Below, in pieces: positions 22,140 to 26,585 of a DNA stretch of 47,994 nucleotides. Within the stretch, counting starts at the first letter, position 1; every line of letters starts with the position of its first letter. The DNA is taken from the NCBI GenBank assembly GCA_009844885.1, contig VYAQ01000095.1:1-47994 (forward strand), given 5' to 3'. Below the pieces are notes generated by a model, which worked only from the letters and a program-made list of their open reading frames with translations, searched no databases and was not told the origin of the DNA. Both the position numbers and the translations under genes were made by a program. Source of the DNA: Gemmatimonadota bacterium (GTDB taxonomy: Bacteria > Gemmatimonadota > Gemmatimonadetes > Longimicrobiales > Gaopeijiaceae).

Positions 22140-22156
22140 GGTGAACGACAACTACG

Positions 22157-22173
22157 GTTTACATTCTGTAAAC
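22157..22173. promoter_or_regulatory. perfect inverted repeat GTTTACA-TTC-TGTAAAC beside the transposon insertion point
   Basis: Two 7-bp arms around a 3-bp centre, 17 bp downstream of the propeller gene. It could be an operator or a weak AU-rich stem at the transcript end. Its last two bases are part of the duplicated target site of the adjacent transposon. Confidence 0.5.
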
Positions 22174-22179
22174 TTTGGT
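22172..22179. repeat. left copy of the 8-bp target-site duplication ACTTTGGT
   Basis: ACTTTGGT lies directly outside the left terminal inverted repeat and is exactly repeated at 26551-26558 outside the right one. Eight bp is the characteristic duplication length of IS1595-family transposition. Confidence 0.92.
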
Positions 22180-22202
22180 GGGGATTACTGCCCAAAGTAA
22201 CC
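22180..22202 (+). repeat. left terminal inverted repeat (23 bp)
   Basis: GGGGATTAC, then TG, then CCCAAAGTAACC. The right end, read inward, is the same except AT in the centre: 21 of 23 identical. The left target site and repeat together also contain CTTTGG/CCAAAG as inverted arms. Confidence 0.92.
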
Positions 22203-22222
22203 ACGCGAGATCGTCTGCATGG

Positions 22223-22429
22223 CTACTCGTCCTTGAAGAGACCGGTATCGACGCCAAAACACACTGCCACGAACAGTAGGCCGTCCAGTGCCTCGGCAAT
22301 GTGCATCTGCACCAGCGTCTCAGGGGCGACGCCCACAGGTCCATCGCGCATGGAGTTTCGCTCCTTCGCGCGGCGGCGAATGCCCTGCAGGGTGGTGGCG
22401 AGATGCTCTAAGTCTATGGTATTGGCCAT
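22223..22429 (-). CDS. small protein of unknown function, transposon cargo
   Basis: A 68-residue protein starting MANTIDLEHLATTLQGIRR. The N-terminal half is basic and helical; the C-terminal half (VQMHIAEALDGLLFVAVCFG) is hydrophobic and could pack as a helix or a weak membrane segment. No family recognised. An AGGGA ribosome-binding site precedes the ATG. It follows the gene at 22440-22625 by 10 bp, so the two form a small minus-strand operon ending 20 bp from the left inverted repeat. Confidence 0.65.
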   Translation of the reverse strand: MANTIDLEHLATTLQGIRRRAKERNSMRDGPVGVAPETLVQMHIAEALDGLLFVAVCFGVDTGLFKDE

Positions 22430-22439
22430 TGGGATGTCC

Positions 22440-22625
22440 CTAGCTCTCTTTCCGCTCTTGAGCGTACCGCCAGTTTCCGCGCTTCTTCGGCGGCGTACCG
22501 AGGATGGCCTTGGCGATGTTCTCCGGCGTGTCCGGGATCGGCTCGGGCAGCGGGTACTTCACGGGACGACCCCGCGGACGCTTCTCTGGAGGTGGGGGTG
22601 TGGCTGGGTGTTTCGATTTTCCCAT
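22440..22625 (-). CDS. small basic protein with AT-hook-like RGRP core
   Basis: A 61-residue protein: basic, proline-rich N-terminus with KRPRGRPVKYP, an AT-hook-like core, then PEPIPDTPENIAKAILGTPPKKRGNWRY. Similar short proteins with the 'DTPEN(I/V)A.....TPPKKR..W.Y' tail occur in many bacteria as uncharacterised proteins (from memory). The ATG at 22625 has an AAGGGG ribosome-binding site 6-7 nt upstream; an in-frame ATG at 22658 lacks one. Suggested role: DNA or RNA binding, by inference from the RGRP motif only. Confidence 0.65.
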   Translation of the reverse strand: MGKSKHPATPPPPEKRPRGRPVKYPLPEPIPDTPENIAKAILGTPPKKRGNWRYAQERKES

Positions 22626-22675
22626 TGTCGTCCCCTTCGTGGACGGGGTAGCTTTCATCGGGCGGCTGGTCCCAT

Positions 22676-22798
22676 GACCTGAACCAGTCGTCAGGTCGGA
22701 GCAGGGCAGGGAGTGACGGTGAACCAGCCCCCAGCCGGACGGGAGGTTCGGGGGAACGGGATGTTCCCGAGGCTGGCGCTGCTACTCCCTGCCCTGCT
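22676..22798. ncRNA. strongly structured region with two perfect hairpins, possible leader RNA of the minus operon
   Basis: GACCTGA/TCAGGTC (22676-22682 with 22691-22697, 7 bp) is followed by a 15-bp perfect stem, AGCAGGGCAGGGAGT at 22700-22714 with its complement at 22784-22798. The 69-nt loop folds further: CCAGCC/GGCTGG and GGGAAC/GTTCCC. No gene lies on the plus strand here; on the minus strand it would form the leader of the 22625-22223 operon. A minus-strand micro-frame (22808-22782, MIRKQGRE) with GGAGG in front ends inside the first arm of the long stem. Structure is directly visible; RNA status is inferred. Confidence 0.5.
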
Positions 22799-22955
22799 TT
22801 CTGATCATTTTCCTCCGCTACCCCGCTGGCCCGGCTGACCGCCAGGCTGCCTGGGTGGAGTGGGCGGCGGCACGTTTACCGATCCGCCGGTTCTCTTTCC
22901 ACCATCACTCATCAGAGATCTACCCTTCTATCGGTGGGGGAATCTGCGATTTCAC

Positions 22956-22985
22956 GTACACCAATTTAAGCCTACAGCGGTGTAC
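22956..22985. repeat. inverted repeat GTACACC...GGTGTAC
   Basis: Seven-bp perfect arms at 22956-22962 and 22979-22985 with a 16-bp spacer, upstream of the promoter for the plus-strand cargo genes. It could be an operator. The stretch 22810-23001 around it has no supported gene. Confidence 0.45.
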
Positions 22986-23001
22986 GCGGAAGGCAGCCGG
23001 C

Positions 23002-23031
23002 TTGCCATTTCCCCTGACCGCGGTGTATGCT
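23002..23031 (+). promoter_or_regulatory. probable sigma-70 promoter for the 23217-24031 genes
   Basis: TTGCCA at 23002-23007, 18-bp spacer, TATGCT at 23026-23031. The predicted transcript would have a ~180-nt leader that includes a GTTGCCCG...CGGGCAAC pairing and the hairpin at 23167. Confidence 0.5.
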
Positions 23032-23166
23032 GGTCTCGTCGATACCTCTGCGGGCCTGAGTCGGGTTGCCCGCGAATACAACAGCCGGATACGGGCAACG
23101 GGTAGCTCCCAGCGCCTCGGCGAATAACGGGGACCGCATTGCTTTCCCGCAGCGGTATCGACAACG

Positions 23167-23186
23167 GCCCGGCACCCGTGCCGGGC
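23167..23186 (+). other. perfect 8-bp hairpin in the leader
   Basis: GCCCGGCA, loop CCCG, TGCCGGGC. No T-run follows, so it is not a standard terminator; it lies 30 bp before the start codon at 23217. Confidence 0.6.
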
Positions 23187-23216
23187 GCGCTGACGACCAA
23201 GCGGGGAGATCACCTC

Positions 23217-23690
23217 ATGCGCCGGTGGAATACCCACGCAATAGTGGTGGCGGGGCTGGTACTGGTGGCTACGGTGATAGTCGTGAATGGCCGCGGCCCG
23301 ATCGGACAGCCAGGCGCGATGGATCGTGCGGAGGAAAGCACCGCCAGTCTTCGGATTCTCATGGGCGAGTACACGGGGCCGATTGCCGCTGCACCTGAAG
23401 GAACACTGGCCCACATGTCCAGATCCCCCGACCTGCCGTATGTGGTCAGTTCGGATGCGTGGCGTCACGCCGTCCGATCCACTGCGTACCGGTCCATGCC
23501 GACCGCCATGTGGACAGCGGTCGGTGTGGAGACCGACGCGCGGCGTCTGGCCGACGGGCGCTCGATCCACACGGTGACATTCGCTGACAGCAGCGCGATC
23601 TCTACGATCTGGACCAAGTGCGGCGATGACCACTGCCTCGACGAAGTGCAGCCCATCCGCGGGCGCAGAGTCGGTGCATTTTCCCGATGA
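23217..23690 (+). CDS. single-pass membrane or secreted protein of unknown function, transposon cargo
   Basis: A 157-residue protein. MRRWNTHAIVVAGLVLVATVIVVNG is a basic n-region plus a membrane helix or uncleaved signal, followed by ~130 extracytoplasmic residues with segments SDAWRHAVRSTAYRSMPTAMW and a Cys pair KCGDDHC. No family recognised. The ATG at 23217 has a GGGGAG ribosome-binding site; the longer open frame upstream (to 23139) runs through the hairpin and is less likely. Its stop overlaps the next start (ATGA), so the two products are probably made together. Confidence 0.7.
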   Translation: MRRWNTHAIVVAGLVLVATVIVVNGRGPIGQPGAMDRAEESTASLRILMGEYTGPIAAAPEGTLAHMSRSPDLPYVVSSDAWRHAVRSTAYRSMPTAMWTAVGVETDARRLADGRSIHTVTFADSSAISTIWTKCGDDHCLDEVQPIRGRRVGAFSR

Positions 23691-24031
23691 GTGACGACCG
23701 GGAATCCCGCATCGCCGAACTGGAACGCCAGCTTGCCGCGCTACGCACCGAGCGCGAGGAAGTGCAGGTCGTCAAGCGTCCACTGGCGGATGATGACGCC
23801 ACCCGAATCGCCGCGCTCGAGCGGAAGCTGGAGGAGGTGGCCGTCACACGGGACATCGACCAGCGGCCTGCGATCCAGGTCATCCAGCGCGTCGAGGGCG
23901 GGGGGAAGCAGAAGCGGGTGCTGACGCCGGTCGAGGAGAAGGCAACGCAGGTGATGGGGTGGGGATGCGCGGTTGCGATGGTGCTGTGGACTGCCTGGTG
24001 TTTTAGCCTCGGGGCAGCGGTACTGCCGTAA
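23687..24031 (+). CDS. coiled-coil protein with C-terminal membrane anchor, transposon cargo
   Basis: A 114-residue protein. Residues 1-55 form a heptad-type coiled coil (RIAELERQLAALRTEREEV, IAALERKLEEVAV); residues ~90-114 are a tail membrane segment (MGWGCAVAMVLWTAWCFSLGAAVLP). No family recognised. Translationally coupled to the membrane protein before it; an interaction between the two at the inner membrane is a reasonable inference. Confidence 0.72.
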   Translation: MSDDRESRIAELERQLAALRTEREEVQVVKRPLADDDATRIAALERKLEEVAVTRDIDQRPAIQVIQRVEGGGKQKRVLTPVEEKATQVMGWGCAVAMVLWTAWCFSLGAAVLP

Positions 24032-24135
24032 GGCGCGATTGGTAGCGCAGGCGAAACGGGCGAAATCCGTAAAGCCCCACGGGGCGGGCATCGCCGTCAT
24101 TCGGCTGTTCATACGCCATTGACAGCGGTGGCGGT

Positions 24136-24189
24136 GTTCCTTCTTCGTAGAAGCAGGAACCGCCCCCGCGCTGTGAACACGGGGGCGGT
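24136..24189 (+). other. two tandem perfect hairpins just upstream of the tRNA
   Basis: Hairpin 1 (24136-24160): GTTCCT/AGGAAC plus CTTC/GAAG around a GTA loop. Hairpin 2 (24159-24189): ACCGCCCCCG/CGGGGGCGGT, 10 bp, 11-nt loop. They share the bases AC at 24159-24160, so only one can form fully. No T-run follows the second. They may terminate the upstream operon or act in processing the tRNA 5' end; a TTGACA hexamer lies at 24119-24124 but no good -10 follows it. Confidence 0.55.
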
Positions 24190-24194
24190 CAAAT

Positions 24195-24269
24195 GCCCCT
24201 ATAGCTCAGTCAGGATAGAGCGCTCGCCTGCTAATCGAGAGGTCGCGGGTTCAAGTCCCGCTGGGGGCA
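24195..24269 (+). tRNA. tRNA with anticodon GCU (Ser codons) but short variable loop
   Basis: A complete 75-nt cloverleaf: acceptor GCCCCTA/TGGGGGC, D stem GCTC/GAGC, anticodon stem CTCGC/TCGAG with a C-T mismatch at 31/39, anticodon GCT at 24230-24232, T arm GCGGG-TTCAAGT-CCCGC, discriminator A. The variable loop is only AGGTC (5 nt). Bacterial tRNA-Ser is class II and SerRS needs the long variable arm, so charging with serine is doubtful. The body resembles tRNA-Arg: A at position 20, C35 and U36 are arginine identity elements. CCA is not encoded. It may be an Arg-charged AGC/AGU decoder, an orphan, or non-functional. Confidence 0.9.
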
Positions 24270-24293
24270 CATTGGAAGATGGCGAATAGCGCA

Positions 24294-24324
24294 ATGCACT
24301 GCAAGGCACTGCAATGCAGTGCAT
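24294..24324. repeat. 10-bp perfect inverted repeat downstream of the tRNA
   Basis: ATGCACTGCA at 24294-24303 and TGCAGTGCAT at 24315-24324, with a partial direct copy (GGCACTGCAA) between them. It could form the transcript end of the tRNA or serve as a protein site. The rest of 24270-24516 shows only a small ACTGG-AAT-CCAGT palindrome at 24424-24436. Confidence 0.5.
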
Positions 24325-24516
24325 GACGTGGCTCGGTGGAGCCCAGTTCGGGTGGGGGGTGGGACATGGGCGTAGCGCGCGGATCGGAATTCAACTACCG
24401 TTAATCCCCCATTTGTCGCGGAGACTGGAATCCAGTGTCGAGTCCGGCACCAAACGACAGTGGGCGGACAGTGATCGCACACCGGACCACTCCCCACCAG
24501 AAGGAAGAGAACCTCC

Positions 24517-24699
24517 ATGCGTTTCGTCATCTACCTCGACAACGCCAGCCAGTACCGCTGGCGGTTGCGTGCTGCCAACAACAAGATCATCGCCGACTCC
24601 GGCGAAGGGTACATCACCAAAGCAGCATGTAAGCACGGCATCGACCTCGTGAAATCGACAAATGCGAGCACGTCCGTGGTCGATCTGACCGAGGACTAG
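24517..24699 (+). CDS. YegP/DUF1508-like small protein
   Basis: A 60-residue single-domain protein: MRFVIYLDNASQYRWRLRAAN, NKIIADSGEGYITKAACKHG, IDLVKSTN. The pattern (F.IY...YRWRL.A.N...IA.SGEGY..K..C..GI..VK) matches the DUF1508/YegP repeat, here present once. Family function is not well defined. AGGAAG ribosome-binding site 12 nt before the ATG. It precedes the winged-helix gene by 48 bp. Confidence 0.82.
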   Translation: MRFVIYLDNASQYRWRLRAANNKIIADSGEGYITKAACKHGIDLVKSTNASTSVVDLTED

Positions 24700-24747
24700 C
24701 AACCGCACCGACTGGCAGGACAAATCAAGGAAAGGGAAGTAACCCTC

Positions 24748-24978
24748 ATGAGCAAAGCGCTGGATAAGGTACTCACAGTGTTTGCGCACAGGGCGAGTGA
24801 CGCCCCCACACATGTTGAGGACATTGCAGCAGAGATGGACATCTCGATCCCCCGTGCCCGTCACTACTTGCGGTTGCTGAACGAACAGAATCTCGTTTGG
24901 GCGGACGAGAACGATACGTATGGACTGACTGCGGCTGGAGACGAGCACATCGTGAAGGGTGGACTGGACCTTTTCTAG
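24748..24978 (+). CDS. small winged-helix DNA-binding protein
   Basis: A 76-residue protein folding as one winged-helix domain: helix ALDKVLTVFAHR, then HVEDIAAEMDISIPRARHYLRLLNEQNLVW (helix-turn-helix with recognition helix) and the wing WADENDTYGLTAAGDEHI. It could regulate the transposon's own genes; this is inferred from position only. AAAGGGAAG ribosome-binding site. Its stop overlaps by 3 bp the end of the convergent 75-residue gene. Confidence 0.75.
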   Translation: MSKALDKVLTVFAHRASDAPTHVEDIAAEMDISIPRARHYLRLLNEQNLVWADENDTYGLTAAGDEHIVKGGLDLF

Positions 24979-25202
24979 CCGTCATTCTGTGGCAGCGTGA
25001 TCGGCGCGTGGTCGTCGATCCACGCCCTGGCGTCCTCGACCGTGTCGAATTCGGGAGACGCCACGTGGGACGGGTTGACCCACCGCTCGAACAATTCGGG
25101 GGTGGGGGACACCGTGAGAACCACGCGCTTCTCAAGGTGATGGGTGGTGGCGATCACCGCCCACCCGCGGTAGCGCTCGACCGTCCGCGTGCTCCGCATC
25201 AC
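24975..25202 (-). CDS. 75-residue protein translationally coupled to the transposase
   Basis: MMRSTRTVERYRGWAVIATTHH, then RVVLTVSPTPELFERWVNPS and FDTVEDARAWIDDHAPI: a small alpha/beta fold with no recognised family. The ATG overlaps the transposase TGA (ATGA), so it would be made in proportion to the transposase; a second ATG follows immediately. A transposition accessory factor or regulator is the simplest reading, by inference. Confidence 0.7.
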   Translation of the reverse strand: MMRSTRTVERYRGWAVIATTHHLEKRVVLTVSPTPELFERWVNPSHVASPEFDTVEDARAWIDDHAPITLPQNDG

Positions 25203-26185
25203 GTGGCCTTCGACGAAATCCCGGTGTCGGCCGTCAGGTCAGTGAACCGCAGCCGCTTGCCCTCCAATCCCCTGACCAGCAACCGCATCTGGTCGATGGT
25301 ATCCAGCTCCCGCATGTTCTGCCGTCCCGCAAACTCGGCAGCGTACCGTCCGAGATGCTTCGGTGAGATCCGGTGGTAGACGCCATGGTAGCCCCGCTTG
25401 AGCATGGACCAGAACGATTCCACGGAGTTCGTGTGAACGTCGCCCTTCACGTACTCCCCCTCGCTGTGGGCGACGCTGGAGTGGATGTAGCCAGCCAAGC
25501 CTCTGTACTGTGACGCGCCGTCCGTGTAGACCGTCGCACCTGGCTTGGCGTGCTCCTTCACGAAGCCCTGCAGCGTGGCAGCGTTCACGTACCGGATGAC
25601 CCGCGCGGACACCTTCTTCGTCTTCCGGTCCTTGATCGCGAGTACCGCCGTCTTGTGGGCGGTCCCGCCCTTGGCGGCGGTCTGCTTGTGTTTCGGCTGA
25701 TTCTTCTTCGCGCCGCCGAAGTAGCTCTCGTCGATCTCCACGGGTCCATCGAATAGACCGATCCTCGTGTCCACCCACGCCTCGCGGAGCCGGTGCGCCA
25801 GGTGCCACGCGGCCTTCTGACCGATCCCCAAATCACGATGGAACTTCATGCTGGACCGCCCCTTCAGCTCCGTGGACATCAGGTAGATCGCAATCGCCCA
25901 CGTCCGCAGTCCCAGCTTCGTCGACTGCATCGCCGTTCCCGTCGTCACGCTGAAAAACTTCCGGCAGCCCTTCTCCCGGCAGCGATGTGTCTGGCTCGGA
26001 TGCTTCGCGCCCGTCTGCACGTTCACCGATCCGCAGTGCGGACACGCGGGCTCGCCACCCCACCGGGCATCCTCAAACCACTCACGCGCCGCGTCGTCCG
26101 TGGAGAATCTCTCCACCACTTCGACCAGCGACATGCCCTTCCTGTGGTACTTGCCGGGACGCTTTCCCTGGGACTTTTTCGCCAT
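25199..26185 (-). CDS. IS1595-family (ISXO2-like) DDE transposase with N-terminal zinc ribbon
   Basis: A 328-residue transposase, typical length. The Cys4 zinc ribbon is CPHC (Cys48, Cys51) with Cys69 and Cys74; the ISXO2-like domain carries EIDESYFGG (Asp152), VYTDGASQY (Asp222) and HTNSVESFWSMLKRGYHGVYH (Glu256), the complete DD(E/N-E) triad. No frameshift or truncation, so it should be active. The start is unclear: ATG 26185 gives the best N-terminus and AGGAGG lies at 26201-26206 (spacing about 15 nt), while an in-frame ATG at 26212 has no ribosome-binding site and would be nearly leaderless. Confidence 0.93.
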   Translation of the reverse strand: MAKKSQGKRPGKYHRKGMSLVEVVERFSTDDAAREWFEDARWGGEPACPHCGSVNVQTGAKHPSQTHRCREKGCRKFFSVTTGTAMQSTKLGLRTWAIAIYLMSTELKGRSSMKFHRDLGIGQKAAWHLAHRLREAWVDTRIGLFDGPVEIDESYFGGAKKNQPKHKQTAAKGGTAHKTAVLAIKDRKTKKVSARVIRYVNAATLQGFVKEHAKPGATVYTDGASQYRGLAGYIHSSVAHSEGEYVKGDVHTNSVESFWSMLKRGYHGVYHRISPKHLGRYAAEFAGRQNMRELDTIDQMRLLVRGLEGKRLRFTDLTADTGISSKAT

Positions 26186-26222
26186 CCGGACCCATCCATT
26201 CCTCCTGACCATTTACTGACTA

Positions 26223-26251
26223 ATAGTAACCAAATGGAGGGCGGATATCAA
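26223..26251 (-). promoter_or_regulatory. sigma-70-type promoter of the transposase
   Basis: On the minus strand TTGATA (26251-26246), 17-bp spacer, TACTAT (26228-26223). The predicted transcription start is near 26216, giving a very short leader to the transposase. Confidence 0.65.
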
Positions 26252-26266
26252 CGCCGAAACTGCCCA

Positions 26267-26295
26267 TAGACAGACCCCGGCGACGTGGCTATATT
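26267..26295 (+). promoter_or_regulatory. sigma-70-type promoter of the micro-ORF transcript
   Basis: TAGACA (26267-26272), 17-bp spacer, TATATT (26290-26295). It is divergent to the transposase promoter and would start a short transcript near 26302 that contains only the hairpins and the 12-codon micro-ORF. Confidence 0.6.
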
Positions 26296-26319
26296 GGGGC
26301 GGAATCGCGAAACGGAAAC

Positions 26320-26351
26320 GGGCGACAGGGGGCCAAACCCCCCTGCCGCCC
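26320..26351 (+). other. 13-position hairpin in front of the micro-ORF
   Basis: GGGCG-A-CAGGGGG at 26320-26332 pairs with CCCCCTG-C-CGCCC at 26339-26351; only the central A/C pair mismatches; loop of six bases. It ends nine bases before the micro-ORF ribosome-binding site. Confidence 0.7.
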
Positions 26352-26375
26352 CAACCTCGAAAGGAGGCTGCCCTC

Positions 26376-26414
26376 ATGAGTGACTTGCCGAATGTCACCG
26401 ATCTCATGAGATGA
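26376..26414 (+). CDS. 12-codon micro-ORF with consensus ribosome-binding site (MSDLPNVTDLMR)
   Basis: AAGGAGG at 26361-26367 lies 8 bp before the ATG, an ideal Shine-Dalgarno arrangement. The frame encodes MSDLPNVTDLMR and its TGA overlaps the first bases of a 14-bp perfect hairpin. It is preceded by its own promoter and hairpin and there is no downstream plus-strand gene, so it is not a classical leader peptide for a neighbouring gene. It may be a translated small peptide, a ribosome-sensing element in a regulatory RNA, or coincidence. Too short for standard gene finders. Confidence 0.5.
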   Translation: MSDLPNVTDLMR

Positions 26415-26460
26415 CGCCCCGCCCGCCCTGAAAGGGATTCCATCCCGCGGGCGGGGCGTC
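26413..26460 (+). terminator. 14-bp perfect hairpin closing the micro-ORF transcript
   Basis: GACGCCCCGCCCGC at 26413-26426 and its exact complement at 26447-26460, with a 20-nt loop that itself can pair GGGA/TCCC. Very stable. No T-run follows, so it is a terminator only in a broad sense; RNA stability or protein binding are alternatives. Confidence 0.55.
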
Positions 26461-26493
26461 ACCAACAGAATGCGACCCAGAAACCAGAACCGT

Positions 26494-26528
26494 CAAGCGC
26501 GCCCGGGCCCACCGCCGCGGCGCGCTTG
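26494..26528. repeat. 10-bp perfect inverted repeat abutting the right transposon end
   Basis: CAAGCGCGCC at 26494-26503 and GGCGCGCTTG at 26519-26528. The second arm touches the right terminal repeat. It may be a subterminal transposase site or a block to read-through from outside. Confidence 0.6.
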
Positions 26529-26550
26529 GTTACTTTGGGATGTAATCCCC
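26528..26550 (-). repeat. right terminal inverted repeat (23 bp)
   Basis: Reads GGTTACTTTGGG, AT, GTAATCCCC on the plus strand; reverse complement of the left end except two central bases. Confidence 0.92.
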
Positions 26551-26558
26551 ACTTTGGT
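26551..26558. repeat. right copy of the 8-bp target-site duplication ACTTTGGT
   Basis: Exact copy of 22172-22179, directly outside the right terminal repeat. Confidence 0.92.
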
Positions 26559-26585
26559 TGACATTTCCGGCCTGGCTGCGGCCGC

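Follow-up and report, generated by a model that had tools for sequence, protein, structure and literature searches.

What a transposon of the IS1595 family carries along with its transposase, and whether any part of that cargo recurs in other elements, is the question raised by a 4371-bp element of a Gemmatimonadota bacterium (assembly GCA_009844885.1). The element occupies positions 22180-26550 of a 47,994-nt stretch of contig VYAQ01000095.1, and this whole stretch is referred to here as the window. The element contains a structured RNA, directly followed by the gene of a putative exported protein, that was found again in other transposons and in distant bacteria. With moderate confidence, the RNA is taken to be a new class of cis-acting leader RNA for exported-protein genes, spread partly by transposons. 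Four observations form the basis of this reading: a pseudoknotted fold, a leader-like position, an excess of exported products among the genes that follow, and carriage by transposons.

A structured RNA family in the cargo

The original prediction, made from the window alone, had listed several long hairpins within the element. Hairpins are indeed present, and one of the listed regions, 23035-23192, proved to be a recurrent structured RNA of approximately 165 nt, consisting of a conserved core, an outer stem that is long and variable, and a covarying second helix that crosses this stem. The region 23020-23190 matched loci L036, L039, L044, L045, L048, L049 and L050, and L051 twice. A covariance model, R1, was built from an alignment of ten RNA copies, the window copy among them. 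At E ≤ 0.001 R1 gave 71 matches in 22 of 98 relatives and was found in 18 of the 23 genomes of the window's own genus; at E ≤ 1e-5 it was found in 28 of 298 Gemmatimonadota genomes, representing 5 of 119 genera.

A collection of genome contigs was scanned with a 24-base degenerate pattern of the core, which matches 30 of the 60 copies then known and not the window's own. At least 117 stretches were returned, a lower bound rather than a census. Among the stretches listed, R1 confirmed 110 of 117, from at least nine phylum- or class-level groups as assigned from record names, the scores of these stretches being owed in part to the bases of the pattern itself. For the first 80 stretches, 76 were confirmed, each at E ≤ 0.00032, while for the other 37 R1 confirmed 34 at E ≤ 0.001 and another at E 0.055. 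The 76 comprised, among the matches listed, Alphaproteobacteria (27), Gemmatimonadota (18), Gammaproteobacteria (9), Acidobacteriota (9), Binatota (4), Verrucomicrobia (3), Chloroflexi (2), Latescibacterota (1), Rhodothermales (1) and two ungrouped records; the remaining 37 stretches added Nitrospira-group records (L204 and L224), again among the matches listed. The statistics on stem arms, open reading frames (ORFs) and elements presented below cover, of the at least 117 scan stretches, the first 80.

Neither a phage nor a plasmid vehicle gained support. Viral contigs held no exact match to the core pattern, which misses about half of the known copies and that of the window, and the window RNA had no match in plasmids; both searches were narrow. 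Similarity among the RNAs gave a mixed picture of cross-phylum transfer, the nearest RNA belonging to the same group in 48 of 87 hits, and transfer was not read from it. In one pair, L150 (Gemmatimonadetes) and L182 (Latescibacterota), the RNAs are 90% identical and about 5.5 kb around them are 84-88% identical, which may reflect either a recent cross-phylum transfer or a binning error.

No Rfam family reached its gathering score over the structured RNA (the window reached one for its tRNA only), and L036, L044, L048, L049 and L051, searched whole, gave no match at E ≤ 1. The RNA is a family uncatalogued in Rfam 15, and a known ribozyme or guide RNA was rejected on the lack of any match at gathering score. 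The omega RNAs of IscB and TnpB and the HEARO RNA are likewise structured RNAs within transposons; the HEARO and IS605-orfB families of Rfam had no match in the RNA-bearing stretches searched, and no IscB- or TnpB-type nuclease gene was noticed in the general profile scans of the element, which included no search aimed at these families.

A pseudoknotted fold

The conserved pseudoknotted fold of the RNA is well supported. When the arms of the outer stem, P1, were exchanged among 94 copies, the native 3' arm of a copy ranked first in 48 (about 1 expected), and across all arm combinations the mean score was 38.5 for native compared with 25.3 for swapped pairs. In the second helix, Px, 74 of 104 copies have all nine pairs intact. 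The pair that varies most, occurring as GC, AT and TA, is kept in 86 of 104; 2000 shuffles gave a mean of 56.7 and no value above 69. Of the two strands of Px only the 5' one lies inside P1, so that the helices cross and constitute a pseudoknot. Two-sided changes were observed at 24 of the 28 model pairs in alignment A4, which is fitted to the model and made up of related rows; in the model-fitted alignment, cells with such changes numbered 189 compared with 69.3 after shuffling, a value that none of 500 shuffles attained, and slid structures scored far below the model structure. The window RNA folds more stably than its shuffles (z -2.78). Strong conservation was also found in the unpaired core segments GAAUACAA, GGGUAGCUCCC and GGCGAAUAGGC. 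A CCCAUG start codon in the core was considered as the beginning of a leader peptide and rejected, as it is not conserved and is missing in the window and L051 copies.

Genes downstream of the RNA

The 126 distinct RNA copies with at least 150 nt of downstream sequence were surveyed for ORFs of at least 70 aa that have a start codon, at least 4 bases of a Shine-Dalgarno (SD) sequence and a position between -10 and 110 nt from the RNA end. Such an ORF was found behind 70 of the 126 copies, compared with 378 of 2264 random positions (17%), at a median distance of 24.5 nt from RNA to start (middle half 19-31 nt). These 70 copies thus display the riboswitch-like trait of a structured leader directly ahead of a coding region. 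Signal-like and lipobox-like products were called by our own hydropathy criterion, under which 50 of the 70 products are signal-like, compared with 25 of the 378 ORFs at random positions (6.6%) and 98 of 564 long ORFs (17.4%). Lipobox-like products account for 22 of the 70, compared with 2.6% of the same 378 and 5.5% of the same 564. In the window, a 157-aa ORF with an N-terminal hydrophobic segment begins 25 nt after the RNA; it had no match worth naming in Pfam, NCBIfam or PHROGs.

A Pfam tally of 54 downstream products included leucine-rich repeats (LRR), bacterial Ig domains, M66 and M4 peptidases, SNase, beta-barrel and CsgG families and others, with no family in more than 5 of the 54. 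The RNA and its downstream gene were found to travel together across genera, as exemplified by one exported-protein gene present in five acidobacterial loci (L136, L142, L144, L149 and L195). Within the window's own genus, large exported proteins with Ig-like, LRR or M66-like peptidase regions stand repeatedly behind the RNA (L085, L086, L090, L096 and L099). The several neighbouring copies per contig suggest that a protein family has expanded together with its leader.

Carriage of the RNA by transposons

Linkage between the RNA and transposons is well supported. An RNA was counted as carried if it lay inside a pair of ends (at least 18/24) with an exact 8-bp duplication. Seventeen of 147 model hits (60 + 87, twice-fetched places included) lie inside such elements, compared with none of 273 random positions, and these hits fall in 12 distinct elements, whose hosts belong to three phylum- or class-level groups. 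Ten of the carriers are of IS1595 type (the window, L039, L049, L050, L117, L118, L120, L121, L135 and L181), the ends being weaker in L049 (18/24) and L120 (19/24). The remaining two, L146 and L199, have IS1-like transposases that pass the Pfam IS1 cut-off of 24.1 (46.3 and 35.1, respectively) and fall below the NCBIfam cut-off of 100 (78.9 and 72.4). Hosts of the carriers include Gemmatimonadota, Alphaproteobacteria (L135 and L199) and a gammaproteobacterium (L181). The IS1-like elements, at 2433-5702 of L199 and 1409-4303 of L146, have ends identical at 22-23 of 24 positions and 8-bp duplications with the RNA inside; in L199 the RNA is followed by a putative lipoprotein with a HELLH-like stretch, recognized by eye.

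Ends were found with no visible duplication in L036, L045 and L123. The contigs of L036 (G000:C349) and L123 (VXPN01000034.1) each consist of one IS1595 element end to end and are probably collapsed multicopy transposons; the L123 contig has about twice the coverage of another contig in its bin. No pair of ends was found in L044, L051/L132, L084, L088, L125, L153, L160, L167 and L168, despite an IS1595 transposase and the RNA in each. Of the 40 loci retrieved on the strength of the RNA alone, 8 hold an IS1595 transposase, as do 12 of 80 named loci, 4 of the latter being repeats of earlier places; the window's own genome has seven such transposases in 4.9 Mb.

The window element shares with known IS1595 transposons transposase domains above curated cut-offs, terminal repeats that begin with GG, an 8-bp duplication and passenger genes; what differs is that one structured RNA and an exported-protein gene are carried again and again. 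The titles and abstract openings consulted in the literature contained no report of IS1595 elements repeatedly carrying such an RNA with an exported-protein gene, and none mentioned a leader RNA of exported proteins borne on a transposon.

The transposon and its insertion site

The element had been predicted to be a complete IS1595-family transposon, and its ends, duplication, transposase scores and the empty site in relatives all bear this out. The inverted ends, described as 23 bp with 21 identical positions, in fact extend to about 28 bp, the identity being 21/23, 22/24 or 25/28 depending on the length compared. The exact 8-bp duplication that had been noted, ACTTTGGT, flanks the body on both sides (22172-22179 and 26551-26558). 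The window has no other pair of ends (at least 20/24) that lie 1-8 kb apart and are flanked by an 8-bp duplication, and none was found in 10 mononucleotide shuffles. Unpaired ends across the genome, named beforehand as evidence against a transposon, were not found: allowing up to 3 mismatches, the end sequence occurs in the whole genome at the two ends of the element only. The transposase, expected to be intact and ISXO2-like with a zinc ribbon, passed the curated cut-offs of PF12762 (134.9 bits; cut-off 27), the zinc ribbon PF12760 (36.4 bits; cut-off 25.4) and NF033547 (188.4 bits; cut-off 75). It carries Cys 57, 60, 78 and 83 together with the motifs EIDES, YTDGAS and NSVESFW, which we take to be the zinc ribbon and DDE residues.

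A search for the empty site gave a clear result. Both flanks lie on one contig, at most 140 bp apart, in 19 of the 22 other genomes of the genus (in G017:C78, for example, at 92% identity and 83 bp apart), this arrangement not being shown in G006, G009 and G011. A single ACTATAGT is present in G017 and G004 where the window has the duplication. The transposon is inserted once at this locus, and its flanking genes are presumably TolB-like and NUDIX-like, names assigned by eye. Similar insertion sites, of the form TGTMA-N8-TGACATT or its reverse, were observed in three of eight complete elements (the window, at 22150-22179 with 26551-26570, L039 and L049). This form is part of a palindromic intergenic sequence, the palindrome being evident also in the uninterrupted site of G007 and G021, and the window's own genome has two further matches to the pattern. 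The palindromic sequence is possibly a preferred insertion target.

Other cargo of the element

The passenger ORFs, single tRNA gene and long hairpins of the original prediction are all present (Table 1), but the proposal that they are kept as a functional module was not sustained. When compared with fetched loci by tblastn, four of the seven cargo proteins had no partner in another IS1595 locus, namely the 157-, 76- and 75-aa proteins and the 114-aa protein, whose single relative lies away from any IS1595 transposase. For the 68-aa and DUF1508 proteins, a single relative apiece lies in a locus with an IS1595 transposase. The 72-aa protein alone is recurrent, with 12 hits of which 11 are in loci with an IS1595 transposase, or 8 distinct places after merging those fetched twice, 7 of them with the transposase. 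A small-protein cargo module was rejected, most of the cargo proteins being private to this copy. The 75-aa gene does overlap the transposase gene by 4 bp as described, but it has no relative in any fetched locus, and a transposase-coupled gene was rejected. Seven other complete elements with terminal inverted repeats and 8-bp duplications in nearby genomes (L035, L039, L040, L042, L043, L049 and L050) have the transposase in common and lack the tRNA, which was rejected as conserved cargo on this account. The comparison of cargo across paired-end elements that had been suggested thus leaves the 72-aa gene and the structured RNA as recurrent, most of the proteins being private and the tRNA absent from the seven other complete elements.

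The closest matches of the transposon tRNA are the Arg(CCT) tRNAs of L022 and L023, and its anticodon stem has one mismatch. By the identity rules for A20 and C35, this GCT tRNA might be charged with arginine while decoding serine codons; a decaying copy is just as possible, given the mismatch. Its anticodon-arm pattern matched, among fetched loci, only copies of the window locus, and a class-I GCT tRNA pattern had no match in IMG/VR. The hairpin beside the 72-aa gene is very stable (z -3.70) and unrelated to the structured RNA; no copy of it was seen elsewhere.

Table 1. Features of the IS1595-family transposon, in window coordinates
Feature	Position	Strand	Remarks
Left target-site duplication	22172-22179	none	ACTTTGGT
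Left terminal inverted repeat	22180-22207	+	25/28 identical to right repeat
68-aa passenger ORF	22223-22429	-	One relative (68% over 62 aa) in IS1595 locus L046
72-aa basic passenger ORF	22440-22658	-	Sole cargo protein recurring in IS1595 loci
Long hairpin	22700-22798	+	Perfect 15-bp arms, 22700-22714 and 22784-22798
Structured RNA, new family	23035-23192	+	R1, 117.5 bits, full-length match; window copy in training set
P1, 5' arm	23038-23054	+
Px, 5' strand	23060-23068	+	GTCGGGTTG
P1, 3' arm	23146-23162	+
Px, 3' strand	23165-23173	+	CGGCCCGGC
157-aa ORF, N-terminal hydrophobic segment	23217-23690	+	Starts 25 nt past RNA; SD GGAG
114-aa ORF, coiled-coil-like, C-terminal hydrophobic segment	23687-24031	+	4-bp overlap with 157-aa ORF
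tRNA gene, anticodon GCT (called Ser)	24195-24270	+	Arg-like body with short variable arm
60-aa DUF1508 protein	24517-24699	+	PF07411
76-aa winged-helix-like protein	24748-24978	+	PF01022, 21.6 bits, slightly below cut-off 22
75-aa ORF	24975-25202	-	4-bp overlap with transposase stop; no relatives found
IS1595-family transposase, 337 aa	25199-26212	-	PF12762, PF12760, NF033547
15-bp perfect inverted repeat	26412-26461	none	Between transposase start and right end
Right terminal inverted repeat	26523-26550	-
Right target-site duplication	26551-26558	none	ACTTTGGT

A proposed mobile leader and its alternatives

Most likely, the RNA forms the 5' leader on the message of the exported-protein gene behind it and acts on that message in cis, controlling its translation or stability through a switch of folded state that a common signal would trigger. 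Transposons of the IS1595 and IS1-like types would pick up such RNA-gene units and move them between bacteria, and a newly arrived exported-protein gene would thus bring its own regulator. Co-transcription, control in cis and a common signal are the parts of this scheme that we infer. With riboswitches and orphan leader RNAs the family shares a conserved core, covarying helices just before the ribosome-binding site, many copies per genome and occurrence in many phyla; it differs from them in that its downstream genes share export rather than a metabolic pathway, and in being transposon-borne. In the window copy, the 3' strand of Px can pair instead with a downstream complement, which would make an attractive switch.

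Several results weigh against the proposed leader. The RNA copies are related to one another, so that the counts overstate independence. No qualifying ORF was within reach in 56 of the 126 copies, which may be due to truncation, decay or missed starts, or to the lack of a role in cis, and 20 of the 70 ORFs that do follow are not signal-like, e.g., the TylF-type methyltransferase of L049. In the first locus set, the fetched locus lacks an IS1595 transposase for 42 of 60 RNA copies, and transposons are therefore one vehicle among others; the RNA is also missing from four of the first eight complete elements (L035, L040, L042 and L043). An alternative 3' hairpin sharing the 3' strand of Px scores above 95% of shuffles in 29 of 104 copies, which makes a weak case for a terminator-like hairpin or expression platform.

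The last of these results bears on another possibility, that the RNA is a 5' leader serving stability, localisation or export-coupled translation constitutively, with no switching. Besides the weak support for a switching hairpin, it would be in keeping with the functional diversity of the downstream genes, whose 54 products have mainly an export signal in common. The conserved unpaired core speaks for switching instead, as it may resemble a binding core. We regard a constitutive leader as possible rather than probable.

An RNA acting in trans was considered by comparison with sRNA-Xcc1 (RF02221), under which the structured RNA would be an independent small RNA gene and the exported-protein gene a mere neighbour in the insertion. 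Under permissive settings RF02221 was the best Rfam family for two of three tested slices, the window (29.5 bits, E 0.0019) and L051 (25.8 bits, E 0.036), both below the gathering score of 53 bits. The L051 alignment covers all 87 positions of the model, with AAUACAA, GAAUA and the helix that closes it. These motifs and a similar closing helix are what the two RNAs may have in common, going by sub-threshold, full-length alignments in two of the three slices. sRNA-Xcc1 has been mapped by rapid amplification of cDNA ends (RACE) as an 88-nt RNA (PMC2996969). Like the present RNA it is mobile, and in Xanthomonas cassettes it precedes symE on the same strand (PMC12444791), an arrangement that would fit a leader equally well. 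The published work compared here comprised PMC12444791, PMC2996969, PMC12189769, PMC11701678, PMC10469786, PMC6557892 and PMC8876359.

The RNA also differs from sRNA-Xcc1. The long outer stem, the crossing helix and the GGGUAGCUCCC hairpin are absent from the Rfam model or treated there as inserts, and the family is not integron-associated in this genus. The L141 slice had no match to RF02221, and RF02221 found nothing at E ≤ 0.001 in 59 relatives, the control genomes being silent too. Neither the spacing of 19-31 nt to an SD-led start nor the excess of exported products would be expected of a free-standing small RNA. A trans-acting gene of the sRNA-Xcc1 kind is accordingly considered unlikely.

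The conserved fold could in principle work at the DNA level, for example as a recombination site of folded single-stranded DNA in a system resembling integrons or transposons. Its inverted-repeat anatomy and association with mobile elements would suit such a site, and published sRNA-Xcc1 copies are reportedly integron-encoded. The dominance of the G-U wobble at several positions (UG in 52 and 51 of about 83 at two Px pairs) favours RNA, however, and the spacing to the start codon is strand-specific. No integron integrase above the family cut-off was found in any of the 23 genomes of the genus, in which attC sites were not searched for, and an integron vehicle was rejected on that result. Two unrelated transposase types carry the RNA, which also argues against a DNA site, and this explanation is judged very improbable. 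A last view, which sees in the element no more than an ordinary IS1595 transposon with a mixed set of passengers, accords with its mostly private cargo proteins and with the known occurrence of passenger genes in IS1595 elements (ISfinder literature), but is already strained by the same RNA family in 12 distinct elements from three groups, and is the least credible of all.

Implications

Leader RNAs are usually tied to one pathway and inherited with it. A wider reading of the present family, offered tentatively, is a mobile regulon. Under it, a pseudoknotted sensor RNA would be dispersed by transposons of two or more families, paired in each case with another exported-protein gene, and the recipients would be phylogenetically distant bacteria with a habitat in common, probably marine sponges and corals. 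The surface and secreted proteins of unrelated symbionts would then answer to a single signal, and the sRNA-Xcc1 known from plant pathogens would represent a reduced form within the same superfamily. Many of the records (those named SB066x, jk18x, COS, RHO, IRC, STY, APA, CO36 and Plut) are presumably sponge or coral metagenome bins; a search of papers for the isolate codes returned no useful match. The records of L218 and L224 are perhaps from other habitats. If the sponge and coral origin is correct, it would suggest a signal shared across that habitat.

Should its function be confirmed, the RNA would be a mobile gene-control element. A leader class found with exported-protein genes in many phyla, and carried by transposons as a unit with its gene, would show horizontal transfer of regulation itself, and the search for its signal could start from a defined RNA. 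sRNA-Xcc1, which has been investigated as an RNA acting in trans, may in turn become a relative of leaders.

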